Source: Acinetobacter proteolyticus (GTDB lineage Bacteria > Pseudomonadota > Gammaproteobacteria > Pseudomonadales > Moraxellaceae). From it: a stretch of DNA of 64,000 bases. The notes under the pieces are model-generated. The model saw only the letters and a list, made by a program, of their open reading frames with translations. It did no database searches and was not told where the DNA came from. Of the stretch, positions 18,621 through 24,860 are shown piece by piece. Made by a program: the position numbers and the translations under genes. The first letter of the stretch is position 1; the number at the start of each line of letters is the position of its first letter. The stretch spans positions 2,193,747-2,257,746 of the forward strand of contig NZ_KB849179.1 of the NCBI RefSeq assembly GCF_000367945.1, given 5' to 3'.

Positions 18621-18643
18621 GTCAATAGAATAAATACGCAGTT

Positions 18644-18674
18644 AAAAAAGGGCTACCAATGGCAGCCCTTTTTT
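18644..18674 (+). terminator. Intrinsic terminator of nrdB
   Basis: AAAAAAGGGCT pairs with AGCCCTTTTTT (11 bp) around an eight- to nine-base loop, ending in six T. It lies 24 bases after the nrdB stop. Confidence 0.92.
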
Positions 18675-18853
18675 ATATCATCTTTTTAATCTAGCTTTGA
18701 GCCTTAAAGTCGTTTTCTACATTTTAAATGGCTAATCAAAAAGATATTTTACATCTCAAAATTAACCCAATAAAAATAGAATCAACCCTACTCAAAATAT
18801 TAATTTAAATACATTTAAAGTAGGTTTGATGACCATAACTGGAATTTCACCAA

Positions 18854-19732
18854 ATGTTCAGCAAGACAATTATTAATAAATATCAAGAAAATTTACTTTT
18901 TTGTACTAATTATTGGCTAAATGACAATCATGGACATAGTGGCTCTCTTTTAAATTTGGATGACTTATCTCAAGTCGAACAGGATAAAACTTGGAATCAT
19001 ATATTTGAAACCTATAAATCAGATTCACTAACTATAAAAAAATTTCGTGACATATTAAAAAGATTGATTCACAAGGAAACAATAAGTCAATGTGAATTAG
19101 ATCTTTCGGAAGTTAAGTATATATGTGGAGGTAAAAGCGCCAAACACTTCAACTTTACTCAAGCTTGTGATTTAGTTAACTGGTGGAAATTGGCAACTAT
19201 TTCAAATTCAGGGGATGAACACATACATAAAACTGAAGTAAAACATCTAAAAGAGTGTTTCAATAAGGATGGGAAATTAAATGGAGTGTCTGGATTTATT
19301 AAAAGAAGCTGGCACAAAGGTCTAATGGTTAGTAATAGCGATGGCAATCATAGAATTGGAAATATTGCCAATATTTGCACCCAAAATCCACAGCTTAAAA
19401 TACCTTACATTGAACAACTAACTAAATACCAAATAAATCAAGAATCCTTACAAGAATTATTAAAAAATTACGCTATATATCTCATTATTGAAAAATCTGA
19501 TAGAGAAATCTCTATTACAATGGATAATATTTGTGAAAATCAAAAATCTTTTTGTTTAATACTTTCAGAAAGATGTACTATTTACTCACTTTCACATGCA
19601 CATTTCGATTGCTTTAATATAAGAATATATTTTTTAGAAAAATCATACAAAAACTTTCTACTAAGAGCTCAGCTAAACAAAAAGTTTCACAAAAATAATT
19701 TAATTAGAGACCTATTAAGAGATAAATTATAA
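18854..19732 (+). CDS. Protein of unknown function next to the Hxs cassette (292 aa)
   Basis: I do not recognise this protein. It is 292 residues, AT-rich in codon use, Lys/Asn/Ile-rich, with no signal peptide or clear membrane segment. The central part holds SNSDGNHRIGNIA (about residues 163-175); the D-G-x-H-R core resembles nucleotide-binding loops of ParB/sulfiredoxin-like proteins, but that link is weak. The tail is Lys/Leu-rich. It converges on hxsA with a 14-base gap and shares its low GC, so it probably arrived with the same island. Whether it works with the Hxs proteins is unknown. Confidence 0.7.
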   Translation: MFSKTIINKYQENLLFCTNYWLNDNHGHSGSLLNLDDLSQVEQDKTWNHIFETYKSDSLTIKKFRDILKRLIHKETISQCELDLSEVKYICGGKSAKHFNFTQACDLVNWWKLATISNSGDEHIHKTEVKHLKECFNKDGKLNGVSGFIKRSWHKGLMVSNSDGNHRIGNIANICTQNPQLKIPYIEQLTKYQINQESLQELLKNYAIYLIIEKSDREISITMDNICENQKSFCLILSERCTIYSLSHAHFDCFNIRIYFLEKSYKNFLLRAQLNKKFHKNNLIRDLLRDKL

Positions 19733-19746
19733 AATATTTTGCATTA

Positions 19747-20421
19747 CTATTCATAATAATTAACTGCAGAAATTCCCAAGCTGTTCAAAAGCTCAGTTGT
19801 CATCCGACCATTAATTGATAGGTTTTTATCAACTTGGTAGTTAGCAATAGCTTTACGTGTATTTTTACCTAGATCACCATCAATTTTCCCAGAATAGTAT
19901 CCTAATTGTAACAAGGCTACTTGTACCCGCTTGATCTGCATAACCTGCATTAAGATTGGATCTTCTGATGATGAGGGTGCACTCGTATTTAAGTTAGTTC
20001 CATAATAATTATTAACTGGAGTATCTGTTTTAGTTGGAACATTTGAGTAAGTTTTTACAGTTATATTCGAACTATTTCTATTTGAAGATGAGGATGTACC
20101 TGAAGAACTAGTTGAGTTCGAGCTTGAATAACTCGGTGGAGTATAGCTTGGTACAGAATAAACAGGTGTTCTTGAACTGGAATAACCTGAATATCCCGAG
20201 CCAGAGTAATGACTTGAATGACTTCTATGGCTTGAATGACTTCTATGACCTGCAAACATGTTTTCATATTCATAATTTAAAGGACGTATAGAAACTGGTT
20301 CTAAATTTTCATAAGAATCCACATTAGTATTAATTGCTGCGGCTGCTTTATTATTAATAACTGGTGCCGATGCAGCAAAAACAGCTAATGATTTTATAAA
20401 TTTACTCAAACACCACCCCAC
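19747..20421 (-). CDS. hxsA: His-Xaa-Ser repeat protein HxsA with peptidoglycan-binding domain
   Basis: HxsA is the His-Xaa-Ser repeat protein of the Hxs cassette and a plausible substrate of the paired radical SAM enzymes. The 224-residue frame has a basic/hydrophobic N-terminus like a signal sequence (about 5-29), five consecutive H-x-S triplets at 59-73 (HRS HSS HRS HSS HYS), a Ser/Tyr/Pro/Thr-rich low-complexity stretch to about 145, and a C-terminal PG_binding_1-like domain (QLGYYSGKIDGDLGKNTRKA, then LSINGRMTTELLNSLGI). The start is uncertain: the frame opens with GTG at 20421, but a TTG four codons later sits better behind a GGGGTGG sequence. It is last in the operon, 42 bases after hxsC. 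Confidence 0.85.
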   Translation of the reverse strand: MGWCLSKFIKSLAVFAASAPVINNKAAAAINTNVDSYENLEPVSIRPLNYEYENMFAGHRSHSSHRSHSSHYSGSGYSGYSSSRTPVYSVPSYTPPSYSSSNSTSSSGTSSSSNRNSSNITVKTYSNVPTKTDTPVNNYYGTNLNTSAPSSSEDPILMQVMQIKRVQVALLQLGYYSGKIDGDLGKNTRKAIANYQVDKNLSINGRMTTELLNSLGISAVNYYE

Positions 20422-20463
20422 TAAAAAATATATTGTTATTAAAATTTTATATTATGCAAGCGT

Positions 20464-21648
20464 TTAACCTTGTTTATCAACAAGTTTTATAGGATTCAGA
20501 GCAGATGGTGCCCAGCCATTTTGATACCAAGTAAATAAACCACAACATTTTTTCTTTACATCACAATTTTCACAAACTTTATCATAAGTATTTTTCCAAT
20601 CTGAAATACTTTTAGCAGAAAATTCCCATAAAGATTCAGGTAAGCAACACAAAGGAATATTCATTAGTACTAAACGGATTTTTGAGTTTACCAATACATT
20701 TATTGCAATTATCAGTTCTTCCCACCACTCTTTGATATCAACTTGACTCAATTCTTTATTAGCCAATGCAAAACCTATAGGTTCACAGCCAATCAGAGCG
20801 ACCTCATTCACAAATGGAAGGTTGGTTCGTATATAAGTACAGAGATCAATTAATTTCTCTAATACAGGCTTAACCAAAACAATTCTTAATTGTATCGGTT
20901 GTTCGTAATGCTGGAGGACATAAAGACCTTCTAATGTTTCTTCAAAAGCCGAATGTTGCTGCACTACAAAATCATGTAAGAGATCTGCATGACCATATAG
21001 TGGGATAAGCCAATTCACTTTCGTTTCAAGATTAGATAACACTGATTCCGCTATCTTAGGATTACTAAACAAGCGACCATTCGTTAGTACATCAATTACG
21101 ATTGAAGGAAATTTATTATGAATAGTATCGATGATTAATCTTAACTGTGTATCTAGTAGTAATGGCTCACCACCCGTTAAGCCAATATTCATCGGTTCAT
21201 AGCTAAGATGATCAATAATTTCTAATGCTTGTCGTACCAACCATGAATCATCATGCTTAGTTGGTGGTTGAGAGCACATGATGCAGTAGTTATTGCATCT
21301 GTTGGTTAAAAATAAAGTATGATGAGTATCACTTGCTCTCAAAAGTACACTTAGATTCTTTTTATATGGGTCAATAGTAACCACATCATTTGATTTTAGT
21401 ACTTGTTGTTCTGGAATAAAGAGATTGTTTGCACCAACCTTATCAAGCAAGTCTGGACTATAAATTGAATAAAGATTGTCTAATCCTGCCTGAATATATC
21501 GATCAAAAATCTCGACTTCCTGGACATTAGTAACTGGCACTAGAATAGATTGATTAGGTAACCACTCTACATCCAAATTATCAAGACTAAGTACCCTAAA
21601 GATTTGTGGAGTATGTTTTGTGACTGAGTCTAGCTTTATTTTTCTCAT
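20464..21648 (-). CDS. hxsC: His-Xaa-Ser system radical SAM maturase HxsC
   Basis: This is a radical SAM enzyme of the HxsC type, thought from gene context to modify a partner peptide or protein. In its 394 residues the CxxxCxxC cluster motif sits at Cys118, Cys122 and Cys125 (TNRCNNYCIMC), followed by a GGEPLLL S-adenosylmethionine motif near residue 158. A C-terminal cysteine group (CENCDVKKKCC) could bind an auxiliary cluster. The ~110 residues before the radical SAM core are an extra N-terminal domain. It starts 5 bases after hxsB, so the two are likely coupled. The chemistry is not established here. Confidence 0.88.
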   Translation of the reverse strand: MRKIKLDSVTKHTPQIFRVLSLDNLDVEWLPNQSILVPVTNVQEVEIFDRYIQAGLDNLYSIYSPDLLDKVGANNLFIPEQQVLKSNDVVTIDPYKKNLSVLLRASDTHHTLFLTNRCNNYCIMCSQPPTKHDDSWLVRQALEIIDHLSYEPMNIGLTGGEPLLLDTQLRLIIDTIHNKFPSIVIDVLTNGRLFSNPKIAESVLSNLETKVNWLIPLYGHADLLHDFVVQQHSAFEETLEGLYVLQHYEQPIQLRIVLVKPVLEKLIDLCTYIRTNLPFVNEVALIGCEPIGFALANKELSQVDIKEWWEELIIAINVLVNSKIRLVLMNIPLCCLPESLWEFSAKSISDWKNTYDKVCENCDVKKKCCGLFTWYQNGWAPSALNPIKLVDKQG

Positions 21649-21653
21649 CTTAT

Positions 21654-23075
21654 CTACTTACTAAAGGCCCACTGGTTTGCTAACTTTCTAAACTTTTCAG
21701 AATTTTGGTACTTATTAAATATCAAATCGAACAAACCCATGTAACGCTTACAATGACTAGTTAAATGGGTAGGTGGAGTCATCGTTCTAAATTCGTTATA
21801 AGCACTAATTGGATCAGGCCCACAATACGGTAGATAAGCACATTGACTACAACTTGGATCATTGAAATTCAAACTCGAAGTAATGATATTTCTTTGTAGA
21901 TCAGAGCTTAACAATTCAGATAAAGGCTCACCAATTCTACCTAAACGTAAAGAAATATCCCCTGTTTCTTTTAGCATACGAGATTCATCACTAGGATATA
22001 CGTATCCATCATAGTTATAAACAATACACCCCAGTCCTGCGCCTGATGGACTCTGGAGATCAATATAACCGTGGTCAAATGGAGAAAGGATTTTGTTTAA
22101 TAAGATTGCGGAATGAACTTCTATTAGTTCATATCCTTTATCATTCCAATGGATAACACGCTCCAATGCTTTCTCATAAAAATCTAAGAACTCAGCGTGA
22201 GTTGGTGCAAGTCGCTTTGAGTTTTTCTTTGCAAATCCATAATCACTCAAACTACGGATAAAAATATCCTTAAATCCTAATTTAACATATGCATCCACAA
22301 TTTCATTAGGATAATCCAAGCTTTTACGTGTAGTAGTCATTAATGCAGAAACCGAGTCTTGACCTAATTCTTTACGAGCTAGCTCTAAGCCTGTAATAGT
22401 TCTTTCATAAGCATCTCGATTAGCAATCGGTCTATTTTTATTATGCAAGTCTGCAAGACCGTCGATACTTGTAGACAATACCACTTGATGTTCTTTGAAA
22501 AATAAGCACATTTCAGAGGTTAATTGGTGCAATGTTGTAGTTACTACAAAACGAATAGATCTATTGTGCTCATTATTTTTTTTAGTAATGTAGTCAATCG
22601 CAAGTTTTACTAAATCATATTTGATTAAAGGATCTCCCCCTTGGAATTCAACTGTTAAAGTATCTGATGTACTTTCAAAGATGGTATCACACGCCAAGAG
22701 TAAATTTTTTCTGGAAATAGTGAACTCATCTCCTGCATGTTGACGACTGACTTGGCAGTAAGAACATGAGTGCATACATTGAATCGTCACAACAATAATA
22801 TGGAGTGAAGTTCCTTCTAAAATTGTTGATTTTTTTGCATGTAACCTTGAAATTAAAGCTCGTTTTGAACCAATAGCATTTTGACTCATCAGGAAGAATT
22901 TAGATTTCAAGTTCAGATAAAGAGCCATATCTAAAGATTCATCTTTAGCAATTATTTTTTTAAAATTTTCTCTAGAAATAAACTCAAAATCCCCCGTCAC
23001 ACTAGTTATGAGATATTTCTCATTTTCCATTCGTTTAAAATTAAATGGTAATAATTCAACATTTTTAAAAAGCAT
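21654..23075 (-). CDS. hxsB: His-Xaa-Ser system radical SAM maturase HxsB
   Basis: This is the second radical SAM enzyme of the cassette. The chosen start (473 residues) is the ATG one base after the hxsD stop; an in-frame start 11 codons earlier would overlap hxsD. The cluster motif CMHSCSYC is at Cys100/104/107, and FQGGDPLIKYDLV supplies the SAM-binding GGD-P motif. The C-terminus has a SPASM/twitch-like cysteine set (GLGCIVYNYDGYVYPSDE, then CSQCAYLPYCGPD), typical of peptide-modifying radical SAM enzymes. AT-rich like its neighbours. Substrate identity is inferred from context. Confidence 0.88.
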   Translation of the reverse strand: MLFKNVELLPFNFKRMENEKYLITSVTGDFEFISRENFKKIIAKDESLDMALYLNLKSKFFLMSQNAIGSKRALISRLHAKKSTILEGTSLHIIVVTIQCMHSCSYCQVSRQHAGDEFTISRKNLLLACDTIFESTSDTLTVEFQGGDPLIKYDLVKLAIDYITKKNNEHNRSIRFVVTTTLHQLTSEMCLFFKEHQVVLSTSIDGLADLHNKNRPIANRDAYERTITGLELARKELGQDSVSALMTTTRKSLDYPNEIVDAYVKLGFKDIFIRSLSDYGFAKKNSKRLAPTHAEFLDFYEKALERVIHWNDKGYELIEVHSAILLNKILSPFDHGYIDLQSPSGAGLGCIVYNYDGYVYPSDESRMLKETGDISLRLGRIGEPLSELLSSDLQRNIITSSLNFNDPSCSQCAYLPYCGPDPISAYNEFRTMTPPTHLTSHCKRYMGLFDLIFNKYQNSEKFRKLANQWAFSK

Positions 23076-23076
23076 T

Positions 23077-23352
23077 TTATTTACTAATACTCGCCATGAT
23101 GATTGCATCTACAAAAGATTTCTGTTGAAGACTGATTTTTTGACTTAGCTCTTGACGTAATTTGTAATCACTAAGAAAATTAAGAATTACTTTTTTTTGT
23201 TCAGCATCTTCAACTGTGAAAAAGAAATTATGAGTATCTAATTGCTTTATCTCATACTTAAGGGGACAAAATTTCAATGCCTGTACTACTTCATCTAATG
23301 ACATCTCATAATAAACATCAAAACCAAATTGAATTAGCGTCTGAGTCCCCAT
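23077..23352 (-). CDS. hxsD: His-Xaa-Ser system protein HxsD
   Basis: HxsD is the small fourth component of Hxs cassettes. The 91-residue protein has no signal peptide or membrane segment. FLSDYKLRQEL (about residues 59-69) fits the LLNDYxLRE motif by which this family is known; the Asp-Tyr-x-Leu-Arg core is intact. Its role is unknown; a small partner next to radical SAM enzymes often acts as a leader-binding or chaperone protein, but that is a guess. AAGGGG lies about 6 bases before the ATG. It is the first gene of the operon. Confidence 0.82.
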   Translation of the reverse strand: MGTQTLIQFGFDVYYEMSLDEVVQALKFCPLKYEIKQLDTHNFFFTVEDAEQKKVILNFLSDYKLRQELSQKISLQQKSFVDAIIMASISK

Positions 23353-23701
23353 ACTAGCCCCTTTAAGTCGATAAATTCACTGAAATTTATTTCTATCAAT
23401 ATTTAATATCTACCACAATTAGCACTATAGAGTTATAGTTGCAGTTATATTATAGAATAGATTCACTTCAAAACAAGATCTTATTTATTATAAGGTTTTT
23501 TAGCAAAATTTTAAAAATAAAACTATATTTAGAAATAACTCCTATTTCATCATTTATTAAAAAGCCATACTAGTTATATAAAAGTATAATGAAATTAAAA
23601 TTCCCAAATTTTTTTAATTAACTGACCTGCTGGGCTTTAAAATACAACTTCAGCATACAATACCATCCGCATAATAGAAACAGATTACCACCAGCTTCCT
23701 C
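23353..23701. other. AT-rich gap upstream of the Hxs operon
   Basis: About 350 bases between the hxsD start and the stop of the TetR gene. It is very AT-rich in its middle and must hold the Hxs promoter on the minus strand, but no single promoter pair is convincing. No terminator, direct repeat or attachment-site pair was recognised. Confidence 0.4.
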
Positions 23702-24253
23702 CTACCCCACCCCCACTAACCACCCTTCCAACAACTTCCCTTTATCCACTTTATTCCCACTCAACAACTGTACCATTGCCCCGTCCACCACAAACAAAAA
23801 CATCTGTGCATCTGCTTTGGCAGCATGGATATCCGTCCTTGCCAACAACATATAAATTTCACGAATCAACCAGTTTCGGTACTCCACCACGATCTCATAT
23901 GCCTTTGGATAACGTGCTTTAATTTCAAAAACTGCTCTAAATAATAGATGGTACATCCCTTCTAGATCGGCATGCAGAAAGAAAATCCGTTTCAGCCTTT
24001 CACGCCCCGATAGATTTTTATTGGCATACAGAATTGAGCGGACTTCTTTCTTGAGTGCCGTTCTCTGCAAGCTCAGCGTCATTTCAACCAAATGCTCTTT
24101 GGAGTGAAAGTATTTATAAAACGTGCCTTTGGCAATTTGTGACGCATCAATAATCAGGTCGACCCCAACATGATGAAAGCCATCTTGGTTAAACAGCGTT
24201 TGCGAGGTATCCAAGACTTTTAAAGCACGATAAGTCAAAGCAAAAGGTGGCAT
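23702..24253 (-). CDS. TetR/AcrR-family transcriptional regulator
   Basis: A one-domain repressor of the TetR type. The chosen ATG gives 183 residues and starts MPPFALTYRALKVLD, the normal beginning of a TetR helix-turn-helix; 60 further open codons upstream do not look like protein. The HTH reads GVDLIIDASQIAKGTFYKYFHSKEHLVE (about 29-56), with the usual G-T-F-Y-x-Y-F-x-S-K-E recognition motif. The C-terminal ligand domain is unremarkable. No target gene is adjacent except across the structured gap, so the regulon is unknown. Confidence 0.85.
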   Translation of the reverse strand: MPPFALTYRALKVLDTSQTLFNQDGFHHVGVDLIIDASQIAKGTFYKYFHSKEHLVEMTLSLQRTALKKEVRSILYANKNLSGRERLKRIFFLHADLEGMYHLLFRAVFEIKARYPKAYEIVVEYRNWLIREIYMLLARTDIHAAKADAQMFLFVVDGAMVQLLSGNKVDKGKLLEGWLVGVG

Positions 24254-24860
24254 ATCATTTCCATGATTGAATAATTTTTTGTTGTTGCATAACCCGATCA
24301 AGCGGCCATTTATGCTGCAATAAGCAAAAAAGGCATGCAAAGACCCGCTAAGACGGCCTGAGCGCATCTCAAGTTTTATTGTTGATATGATTTTTAGTTG
24401 TGACAAAGCAGCGCTTGAAAAGCCTAAAGGCAATCAAACGGCGTCAAAGACTAATGAAGAAGAATAAAAATACAGTGCATGGCCAACTCCTACAAAATTC
24501 GGAATACTGCCAAGACATAAAGATTATGGTGGCAGGGAGAAAGAGGGTTGACAGACTGAACCTAAGAATCAGCACGCCCGAAGGCGTCCCCCTTTCGCCC
24601 TACCGCTACAAAAGGGGGACGAACGAGTCTACATCAAAAAAACGAGGTTTTTCAATGCACTTAGGAAACGGTCTGTCAAAACCGGCTGGCGATGTAGGCC
24701 AGCGCTTAAAGAATAAGCGGTGAGTTTAAGGGTGTCAATCTTACACTTTGGGCCAAAGTAATTTTATTATTATTTTTCAATTGATTAAATTATTTATTAT
24801 TTTTAAATTATGATATAAATGTATTTTAATAATCAGCCAATCGGCTTAAAGCATCCTGCT
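24254..24860. other. Gap with structured element, TetR gene to flavin reductase
   Basis: A 607-base stretch without a convincing gene. It contains the branched inverted-repeat element at 24550-24703 and, just after it, the palindrome ACTTTGGGCCAAAGT near 24747-24761. The last ~100 bases are AT-rich and lie downstream of the flavin reductase gene. A 107-codon open frame at 24400-24723 runs through the hairpins and looks like chance. Confidence 0.6.
24550..24703. ncRNA. Branched structured element, possible non-coding RNA
   Basis: Nested pairings show a compact fold. Outer stem: GACAGAC (24550-24556) with GTCTGTC (24671-24677), continued by CCTAAG (24561-24566) with CTTAGG (24660-24665). Inside are CGCC-CGAA-GGCG (24575-24586), a perfect 10-bp stem GTCCCCCTTT / AAAGGGGGAC (24586-24595 / 24611-24620), and AAAAA/TTTTT around 24640. 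A further hairpin GCTGGC/GCCAGC lies at 24685-24703. On the minus strand the first inner hairpin becomes a stable UUCG tetraloop, so minus transcription is slightly favoured. I do not recognise the family. Confidence 0.5.

Follow-up and report, generated by a model that had tools for sequence, protein, structure and literature searches.

The His-Xaa-Ser (Hxs) family, whose name is said to originate with Haft and Basu in 2011, is represented in NCBIfam by models for HxsA (TIGR03979), HxsB (TIGR03978), HxsC (TIGR03977) and HxsD (TIGR03976) and by HxsA2-A4. We analyzed a cassette of this family in a 64,000-nucleotide stretch of the 4.31-Mb genome of Acinetobacter proteolyticus (contig NZ_KB849179.1), hereafter called the window. 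The cassette shares with the family the D-B-C-A gene order, both radical S-adenosylmethionine (SAM) enzymes, the H-x-S array and the peptidoglycan-binding type of HxsA, but its HxsD is too divergent for TIGR03976, as are those of the Acinetobacter relative L005 and of L049 and L050. The window cassette thus belongs to a known family that is still unsolved; its HxsD is divergent, and it occupies a chromosomal site whose content is swapped between strains. The initial annotation of this DNA had proposed an undescribed modification system; the family itself is described and is named in public plasmid and phage records, but as to its chemistry the proposal stood, in that no Hxs reaction or product was found in the open-licence literature (a subscription-only paper could exist), even though Hxs occurs in scattered Proteobacteria and in 409 plasmid records. 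What is known is therefore the family, and what is new here is the loss of auxiliary cluster I (AuxI) from HxsB and a testable reading of the chemistry. A guess at the reaction has become feasible, as HxsB carries the metal-cluster signature seen in enzymes that join an aromatic residue to its neighbour at i+2.

Four groups of described systems are closest to Hxs. The triceptide systems (GrrM/OscB, XyeB/XncB, FxsB/MscB, HaaB, YhhB and ChlB) have in common with it an i to i+2 motif, a peptide-modifying fold and, in the enzymes examined, the absence of the AuxI ligand set with auxiliary cluster II (AuxII) kept; Hxs differs in that HxsB falls below their hidden Markov model (HMM) cut-offs and outside their clade in the tree, that two radical SAM enzymes are present and that the predicted substrate is a whole protein, exported and bearing triplets in tandem. 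In an excerpt of a review (PMC11002830), triceptide motifs are described with i to i+2 spacing, MscB as forming a C4(Phe)-Cbeta(Ser) bond, and HaaB and YhhB as forming C2(His)-Cbeta links. PapB and the SCIFF maturase CteB are near to HxsB in family score and in layout, respectively, PapB being the best HMM family after its own and CteB matching from the first residues; however, CteB retains AuxI, and HxS arrays are almost devoid of Cys. The anaerobic sulfatase-maturating enzymes (anSME) act on the C-beta of Ser or Cys and include the top structural match, with an Asp at the 277 place, but they retain AuxI and have no counterpart of the HxsB N-terminal domain. The bicyclostreptin Hgh system, in the same excerpt of PMC11002830, likewise combines two radical SAM enzymes and a small protein D, and links Ser and His; in contrast, HghD is described there as a RiPP recognition element (RRE) protein, while a weak model of HxsD has another element order, and the spacing of the linked residues differs.

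The Hxs cassette and the H-x-S array of HxsA

The window locus is a His-Xaa-Ser cassette, as carried by the scores of HxsA, HxsB and HxsC above their curated NCBIfam cut-offs. The computed gene content and architecture comprise a minus-strand run, hxsD-hxsB-hxsC-hxsA, at window positions 19747-23352 with intergenic gaps of 1, 5 and 42 bases. This is the order, strand and spacing given in the initial annotation, and the CxxxCxxC motifs it placed at HxsB C100/104/107 and HxsC C118/122/125 and the five tandem triplets it placed at HxsA residues 59-73 are all present; its interval, however, began too early at 18854, as positions 18854-19732 are a plus-strand open reading frame (ORF) of the DUF6685 family. 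The genes, and the parts of HxsA, are:

23077-23352, minus strand: hxsD, 91 amino acids (aa), divergent, named by its position upstream of hxsB
21654-23075, minus strand: hxsB, radical SAM/SPASM-type maturase, 473 aa; TIGR03978 558.6 bits (cut-off 370); AlphaFold2 (AF2) model with a predicted local distance difference test (pLDDT) score of 93.4
20464-21648, minus strand: hxsC, second radical SAM enzyme, 394 aa; TIGR03977 347.8 bits (cut-off 267.9)
19747-20421, minus strand: hxsA, predicted modified protein, GTG start; TIGR03979 143.1 bits (cut-off 121.65)
20335-20409, minus strand: signal-peptide-like N-terminus of HxsA, as read from the sequence
20248-20283, minus strand: HxsA motif PLNYEYENMFAG directly before the array, candidate recognition sequence
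20203-20247, minus strand: five tandem H-x-S triplets (HRS HSS HRS HSS HYS), HxsA residues 59-73, predicted modified region
19777-19935, minus strand: PG_binding_1 domain of HxsA, residues 163-215; PF01471 42.8 bits (cut-off 23)

The start of hxsB is most likely 23075, giving the 473 aa listed. For hxsA, the TTG at 20409 is a possible alternative start, the one that relatives would use.

The window array contains no Cys and is the sole run of at least three tandem HxS in the six frames of the window. Among 115 hxs loci, an array of at least three triplets accompanied hxsB in 113 and an hxsC-like ORF did so in 114. We compared 55 distinct arrays drawn from 92 loci, a set of ORFs that excludes the Acinetobacter loci. 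Each array held 4 to 8 triplets, and in the inner triplets (those between two in-register HxS) H was first in 237/237 and S third in 237/237, with 13 different residues, chiefly S, R, Y and A, at Xaa; Cys occurred in one of the 342 triplets counted, as Xaa. TCN and AGY serine codons were mixed in 34 of the 55 arrays and both His codons (CAT and CAC) in 54, indicating that the H/S register is held by selection and not merely by recent duplication. Directly before the array, a motif PLN-x4-N-[LM]-[YF]-A-[GA] was recognized, with the P, L and N columns each kept in 22 of 55, the N at -5 in 28 and the A at -2 in 45. The Xaa residues often alternated between R and S (HRS HSS), for example RSRSSY in 24 of the 92 loci, and many arrays showed no alternation.

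His-rich periplasmic proteins can bind metals, and the array might accordingly be a plain metal-binding His/Ser repeat, both radical SAM enzymes acting elsewhere. We hold this explanation to be hardly credible, given an intact H/S register and the company of hxsC-like ORF and array that hxsB keeps in 114 and 113 of the 115 loci.

The array was also called on 46 lineages, of which 42 gave one. The others were L096 and L138, with no run of at least three HxS, and the Acinetobacter sets L177 and L178-L180, which were kept separate though their HxsB are >90% identical and in which arrays are present on the count of at least three triplets. In the 42 lineage representatives, a hydrophobic stretch lay upstream of the array in 40, and the HxsA tail was long in 32, 31 of these with a peptidoglycan-binding-like domain, and short in 10. 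In a survey of neighbours in the 46 lineages (ORFs of at least 90 aa, simple longest-ORF calling), no transporter or protease family lay beside hxs in more than three lineages; an ABC-ATPase-like family occurred in three, at about 7 kb from hxsB in L053, and the broadest non-Hxs family was a LysR-type gene in seven, Pseudomonas making up nine of the 12 loci listed. The scarcity of transporter and protease neighbours suggests that HxsA may be exported by a general route, presumably Sec. On the Klebsiella pneumoniae IncN conjugative plasmid of L181, hxsD, hxsB and hxsC are annotated and open, and the hxsA-like ORF stops without reaching an H-x-S array; three consecutive HxS were found nowhere in that stretch.

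An HMM search had been suggested as a check on all four genes, and HxsD was the one protein that did not bear out its name by this means. The window HxsD matched no NCBIfam model at a maximum E of 10, TIGR03976 being in the library, and no Pfam family over its cut-off. Seven other HxsD-position ORFs were scored for comparison against the TIGR03976 cut-off of 50 bits; four exceeded it (51 to 94 bits), and L005, L049 and L050 failed. Against a profile of other HxsD the window protein scored 4.1 bits (E 0.23), and hhalign gave a probability of 39 (E 3e-4). The name hxsD is thus provisional and reflects position and weak profile similarity. The AF2 model, a weak one with pLDDT 71, shows the order beta-alpha-beta-beta-long helix. 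We considered HxsD as an RRE and set the idea aside, as the element order in this weak model differs from that of an RRE. Compared with PDB structures, the model reached a top Z of 6.4 with no PqqD-like entry among the best 50 matches listed, an absence that, with so weak a model, excludes nothing; a profile sequence search of PDB returned two chains only (best E 0.49).

Cluster ligands and fold of HxsB

Invariant residues and the cluster-ligand pattern were computed on an alignment of 67 HxsB, which is also the basis of the structure model. The relevant features are:

22833-23060, minus strand: HxsB residues 6-81, RRE-like N-terminal domain; strands at 6-34, then helix, helix, short strand, helix
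22755-22778, minus strand: HxsB C100-x3-C104-x2-C107, radical SAM cluster ligands, kept in 67/67
21984-21989, minus strand: HxsB D363-E364 in VYPSDE; D and E in 67/67, the Asp aligned with anSMEcpe residue 277
21750-21851, minus strand: HxsB C409-x2-C412-x5-C418-x23-C442, AuxII ligands, kept in 67/67; assigned from an excerpt of PMC5715301

In that excerpt (PMC5715301), the anSMEcpe ligands are given as C317, C320, C326 and C348 for AuxII and C255, C261, C276 and C330 for AuxI. At HxsB residue 362, the place of the AuxI ligand C276, Ser was found in 60 of the 67 sequences and Cys in one (L139), and the AuxI zones as a whole held no Cys in 58, a single Cys in eight (C350 in the window) and four Cys in one, again L139. 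Thus, 66 of the 67 HxsB are unable to form a four-Cys AuxI. The remaining sequence, on a viral contig, lies in a locus (L139 5430-7982) that is unusual in two further ways: hxsC precedes hxsB, and the H-x-S blocks of its His-Ser protein are interrupted.

The best structural matches to the HxsB model were anSMEcpe (Z 35.3), CteB (5wgg, Z 33.8), ChlB (Z 32.9; root mean square deviation 3.0 over 351 residues) and TigE (8vpo, Z 26.1), and Foldseek ranked CteB first. CteB covers model residues 9-460 and TigE 3-459, so that the N-terminal domain is included within whole-chain matches only, whereas the anSMEcpe alignment spans residues 87-473. The element order of residues 6-81 in the model fits an RRE (PqqD-like), and the N-terminus of CteB, we take it, has an RRE fold; this part of HxsB is accordingly termed RRE-like.

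The strong match to anSMEcpe raises the alternative that HxsB oxidizes each Ser in the manner of sulfatase maturases, to formylglycine or a relative, with a loss of 2 Da and no ring. An Asp at the 277 place, which we take to be the catalytic base of anSME, is kept in 67/67 HxsB, in agreement with this idea. However, the AuxI ligand set that anSME keeps is absent in 66 of the 67, and an oxidation of Ser would not require the invariant His two residues ahead; we consider this outcome quite improbable. Radical SAM epimerases also exist, and EpeE is among the structural matches, so an epimerization or other C-alpha change with zero net mass change was considered. Its match is much weaker (Z ~17) and the invariant His would be left unexplained, which makes such a change very unlikely.

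We then compared HxsB with a cyclophane-type sample of seven proteins (L205-L211) and ChlB. Two of the seven exceeded curated cut-offs, L205 as GrrM and L208 as XyeB (450.3 of 450), while L206, L207 and L209-L211 fell below theirs. No Cys was found at the aligned AuxI columns of L205, L206 and L208-L211, with one Cys close by in L206 and L209, and all six keep the AuxII pattern C-x2/3-C-x5-C-x21/22-C; L207 shows the same AuxI-less, AuxII-kept pattern as read from its Cys list alone. In the ChlB crystal sequence, taken via its alignment, the AuxI set is absent and AuxII is kept; ChlB is called a 'multiple cyclophane synthase' in an entry of a reference list. By comparison, the AuxI Cys are kept in the sulfatase maturases L008, L012 and L214 (all above cut-off), in the SCIFF maturase L212 (747.8 of 425), and in anSMEcpe and CteB. 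These results suggest that HxsB resembles the examined cross-linking enzymes in its cofactor signature, and that H-x-S has their i to i+2 spacing. That the AuxI-less, AuxII-kept pattern would be a defining mark of the cyclophane class is our own reading of these sequences.

The proposed His-to-Ser cross-link

Tentatively, we propose that HxsB and HxsC together cross-link His to Ser(i+2) on a protein that is exported and usually binds peptidoglycan, a reading that we regard as somewhat short of an even chance. It draws on the i to i+2 spacing, the invariance of H and S with a free Xaa, the loss of AuxI with AuxII kept, the likeness in fold to ChlB, and the signs of export, namely the peptidoglycan-binding-like domain of long-tailed HxsA and the few transporter or protease neighbours. 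The cross-link itself, the sequence of events, the parts played by HxsC and HxsD and the location of the product are inferred as follows. As synthesized, HxsA would comprise a Sec-type signal peptide, the conserved motif, the H-x-S array and a domain that binds peptidoglycan. Prior to export, the RRE-like domain of HxsB would grip the region ahead of the array, and HxsB with HxsC would abstract a Ser C-beta hydrogen and bond this C-beta to the imidazole of the preceding His at i-2. Each triplet would become one three-residue cyclophane with a loss of 2.016 Da, up to five here (up to -10 Da). HxsC might make a second change or share the triplets, with HxsD as an accessory, and the stiffened, imidazole-rich rod would then be anchored in the periplasm. 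For the use of such a rod, metal binding or envelope protection are guesses.

The same motif and cluster evidence would suit another His-Ser or Ser-centred cross-link, such as a C-N bond from an imidazole N to the Ser C-beta, or an ether, which also costs 2 Da per link. Radical SAM C-O and C-N links, including a two-enzyme Ser-O to His-Cbeta system, are covered in an excerpt of PMC11002830, and DarE, which forms both an ether and a C-C bond, was measured with about 7.8 Fe, taken by its authors to mean two clusters (excerpt of PMC9055067). On the other hand, that Ser-O to His link spans i to i+3 from Ser, compared with H and S at i and i+2 here, and the three-residue radical SAM precedents found are C-C bonds. 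We judge a link of this other kind to be unlikely, and retain the C-C cyclophane as the preferred product.

Several observations weigh against the cyclophane. HxsB lies far under the cut-offs of cyclophane families (GrrM 60.2 of 310, AmcB 51.7 of 425, YhhB 38.8 of 445 and XyeB 34.9 of 450); after its own model it scores best on PapB (102.6 of 340), a thioether family, and its next-best families are PapB, TIGR04083, nif11 and SCIFF maturases, with no cyclophane family among them. It is also below the cut-offs of SCIFF (73.2 of 425) and of the anaerobic sulfatase maturase model TIGR03942 (64.5 of 349.45). In the tree, HxsB forms one clade (100/99) apart from the XyeB-type clade (the row FxsBlike_L208 being the curated XyeB) and joins the SCIFF maturase (row PapBlike_L212) weakly, by a long branch (91/73). 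A single clade of all AuxII-only rows was weakly rejected (approximately unbiased test, p-AU 0.039), with long branches and with L139 counted, perhaps wrongly, as AuxII-only. The AuxI-loss signature of HxsB and of the cyclophane enzymes may thus be convergent: either AuxI was lost repeatedly, in which case its link to function would be more telling, or the signature is less informative. Moreover, the comparison sample was small, and AuxII-only families beyond it may carry out different reactions. No clear Asp stands at the 277 place in GrrM L205; the L139 HxsB, with Cys at 344, 355, 362 and 421, could bind AuxI and is perhaps an older form still holding it; and anSMEcpe and CteB fit the HxsB model as well as ChlB does.

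The cross-link model also leaves the need for two radical SAM enzymes unexplained, and HxsC is as constant across loci as HxsB. Its closest solved relatives by sequence are SkfB and viperin-type enzymes, and two sets of Cys stand out among 56 HxsC:

21274-21297, minus strand: HxsC C118-x3-C122-x2-C125, radical SAM cluster ligands; C122 and C125 invariant, C118 in at least 90%
20545-20649, minus strand: HxsC C334, C359, C362 and C368, invariant, predicted ligands of one auxiliary cluster

The acquired island and mobile carriers of hxs

In the window, the cassette lies within an island whose edges were computed from flank alignments with three close relatives; these end at 18622, just past nrdB, and restart at 23710-23711, within the 3'-terminal part of a TetR gene.

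18623-23709, no strand: acquired island, bounded by the 3' ends of nrdB and the TetR gene, 5,087 bases
18854-19732, plus strand: DUF6685 ORF within the island, convergent with hxsA; PF20390 31.7 bits (cut-off 24.6)

The same flanks enclose 746 bp in G017, 3.8 kb in G024 with an 898-aa protein read from its sequence as a nuclease/NTPase, and 6.8 kb in G010 with three large ORFs read as type I restriction-modification subunits, so that the search for an empty site proposed at the outset yielded other inserts or the 746 bp alone. The GC content of the island is 0.318, against about 0.40-0.46 across most of the flanks. Both the low GC content, from which transfer had been suspected, and the sharp edges in the three relatives support the conclusion that the cassette was acquired by transfer. 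No convincing terminal repeats bounding the island were found, and promoter-like sites numbered 20, compared with 27.5 in shuffles. G071 holds the same island (96% across 14.7 kb). By contrast, G066, G088 and G121 have only hxsA-D in common with the window (positions 19750-23336, ~84% identical), at another site. The DUF6685 ORF was tried as part of the cassette and dropped: only hxsA-D is common to these three Acinetobacter relatives, and no phmmer match (E<1e-3) was found in the 115 hxs loci, the first 19 of which extend just ~1.5 kb past hxsB.

HxsB above cut-off was found in five of 149 genus genomes and 14 of 398 phylum genomes, the present genome included in both. Among plasmids, 409 records had a match, 316 of them from Klebsiella and 325 typed as conjugative, and two phage records matched, one a Leptospira phage. 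A whole-genome search for the HxS pattern, restricted to TCN serine codons, told little, with 35 matches versus 16 for the reversed pattern. In G066, G088 and G121, hxs comes after TnsA/TnsB/TniB/TniQ-type genes, as tested by HMM in G066 and, for TnsB, also in G121. Loci in two genera, L178, L179 and L180 from three Acinetobacter and L183 on Aeromonas salmonicida plasmid 4, have hxs adjoining TnsA-type transposon genes, as if hxs were recurrent Tn7-like cargo.

These carriers bear on an explanation at the biological level, namely that hxs is a conflict or defence module of mobile elements. Conjugative plasmids and a Leptospira phage are among its carriers, the type I restriction-modification genes of G010 occupy the same nrdB gap, and in G066 it sits between the tnsA/B/C/tniQ-type genes and the Thoeris genes thsA and thsB on its other side. 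PADLOC scans covered 169 of the 237 listed neighbours, the lineages L129 to L142 and a number of other proteins being excluded. In one set of 108 neighbour proteins 21 families were matched, and in a second set of 61 there were 39, of which the best 25 were inspected; nearly all were matched by single members and many came from one helicase. A control set of 119 proteins, drawn from arbitrary positions of genomes that carry hxs, matched 18 families, mostly by one UvrD-type set; the matches near hxs are more varied than these, but families and not proteins were counted, and an enrichment is unproven. HxsB and HxsC themselves matched PADLOC weakly, as viperin-type radical SAM proteins. Taken together, we regard a defence role as rather improbable.

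Three further features were observed in the surroundings of hxs. A C4 antisense RNA (Rfam RF01695, 61.6 bits, gathering 45), of a family known from P1/P4-type phages, lies at 24525-24610 on the minus strand of the window, between the TetR and flavin-reductase genes. A protein of 312-315 aa, membrane-like by eye, follows hxsA at L178 8301-9248, L179 8518-9465 and L180 7833-8771, and the L179 copy has no Pfam match. A small membrane-like protein (L049 16222-16617, 131 aa, directly after hxsA) recurs at four other loci, in three lineages overall.

A wider picture, which we offer as conceivable and more doubtful than the cross-link itself, is that Hxs puts tandem imidazole cyclophanes on a whole exported protein and not on a released peptide: HxsB, having lost AuxI separately, though as the known cyclophane synthases did, would tie each His to Ser(i+2), and the product would be a rigid, peptidoglycan-moored rod spreading on plasmids, phages and Tn7-like elements. 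If true, this would be a first class of cell-wall-anchored polycyclophane proteins, and cyclophane chemistry, beyond its place in small peptides, would take in the tandem repeats of an envelope protein. The loss of AuxI would then serve as a sequence marker for finding more cross-linking enzymes, and, together with the i to i+2 fit, it turns Hxs into a concrete mass-spectrometric prediction.

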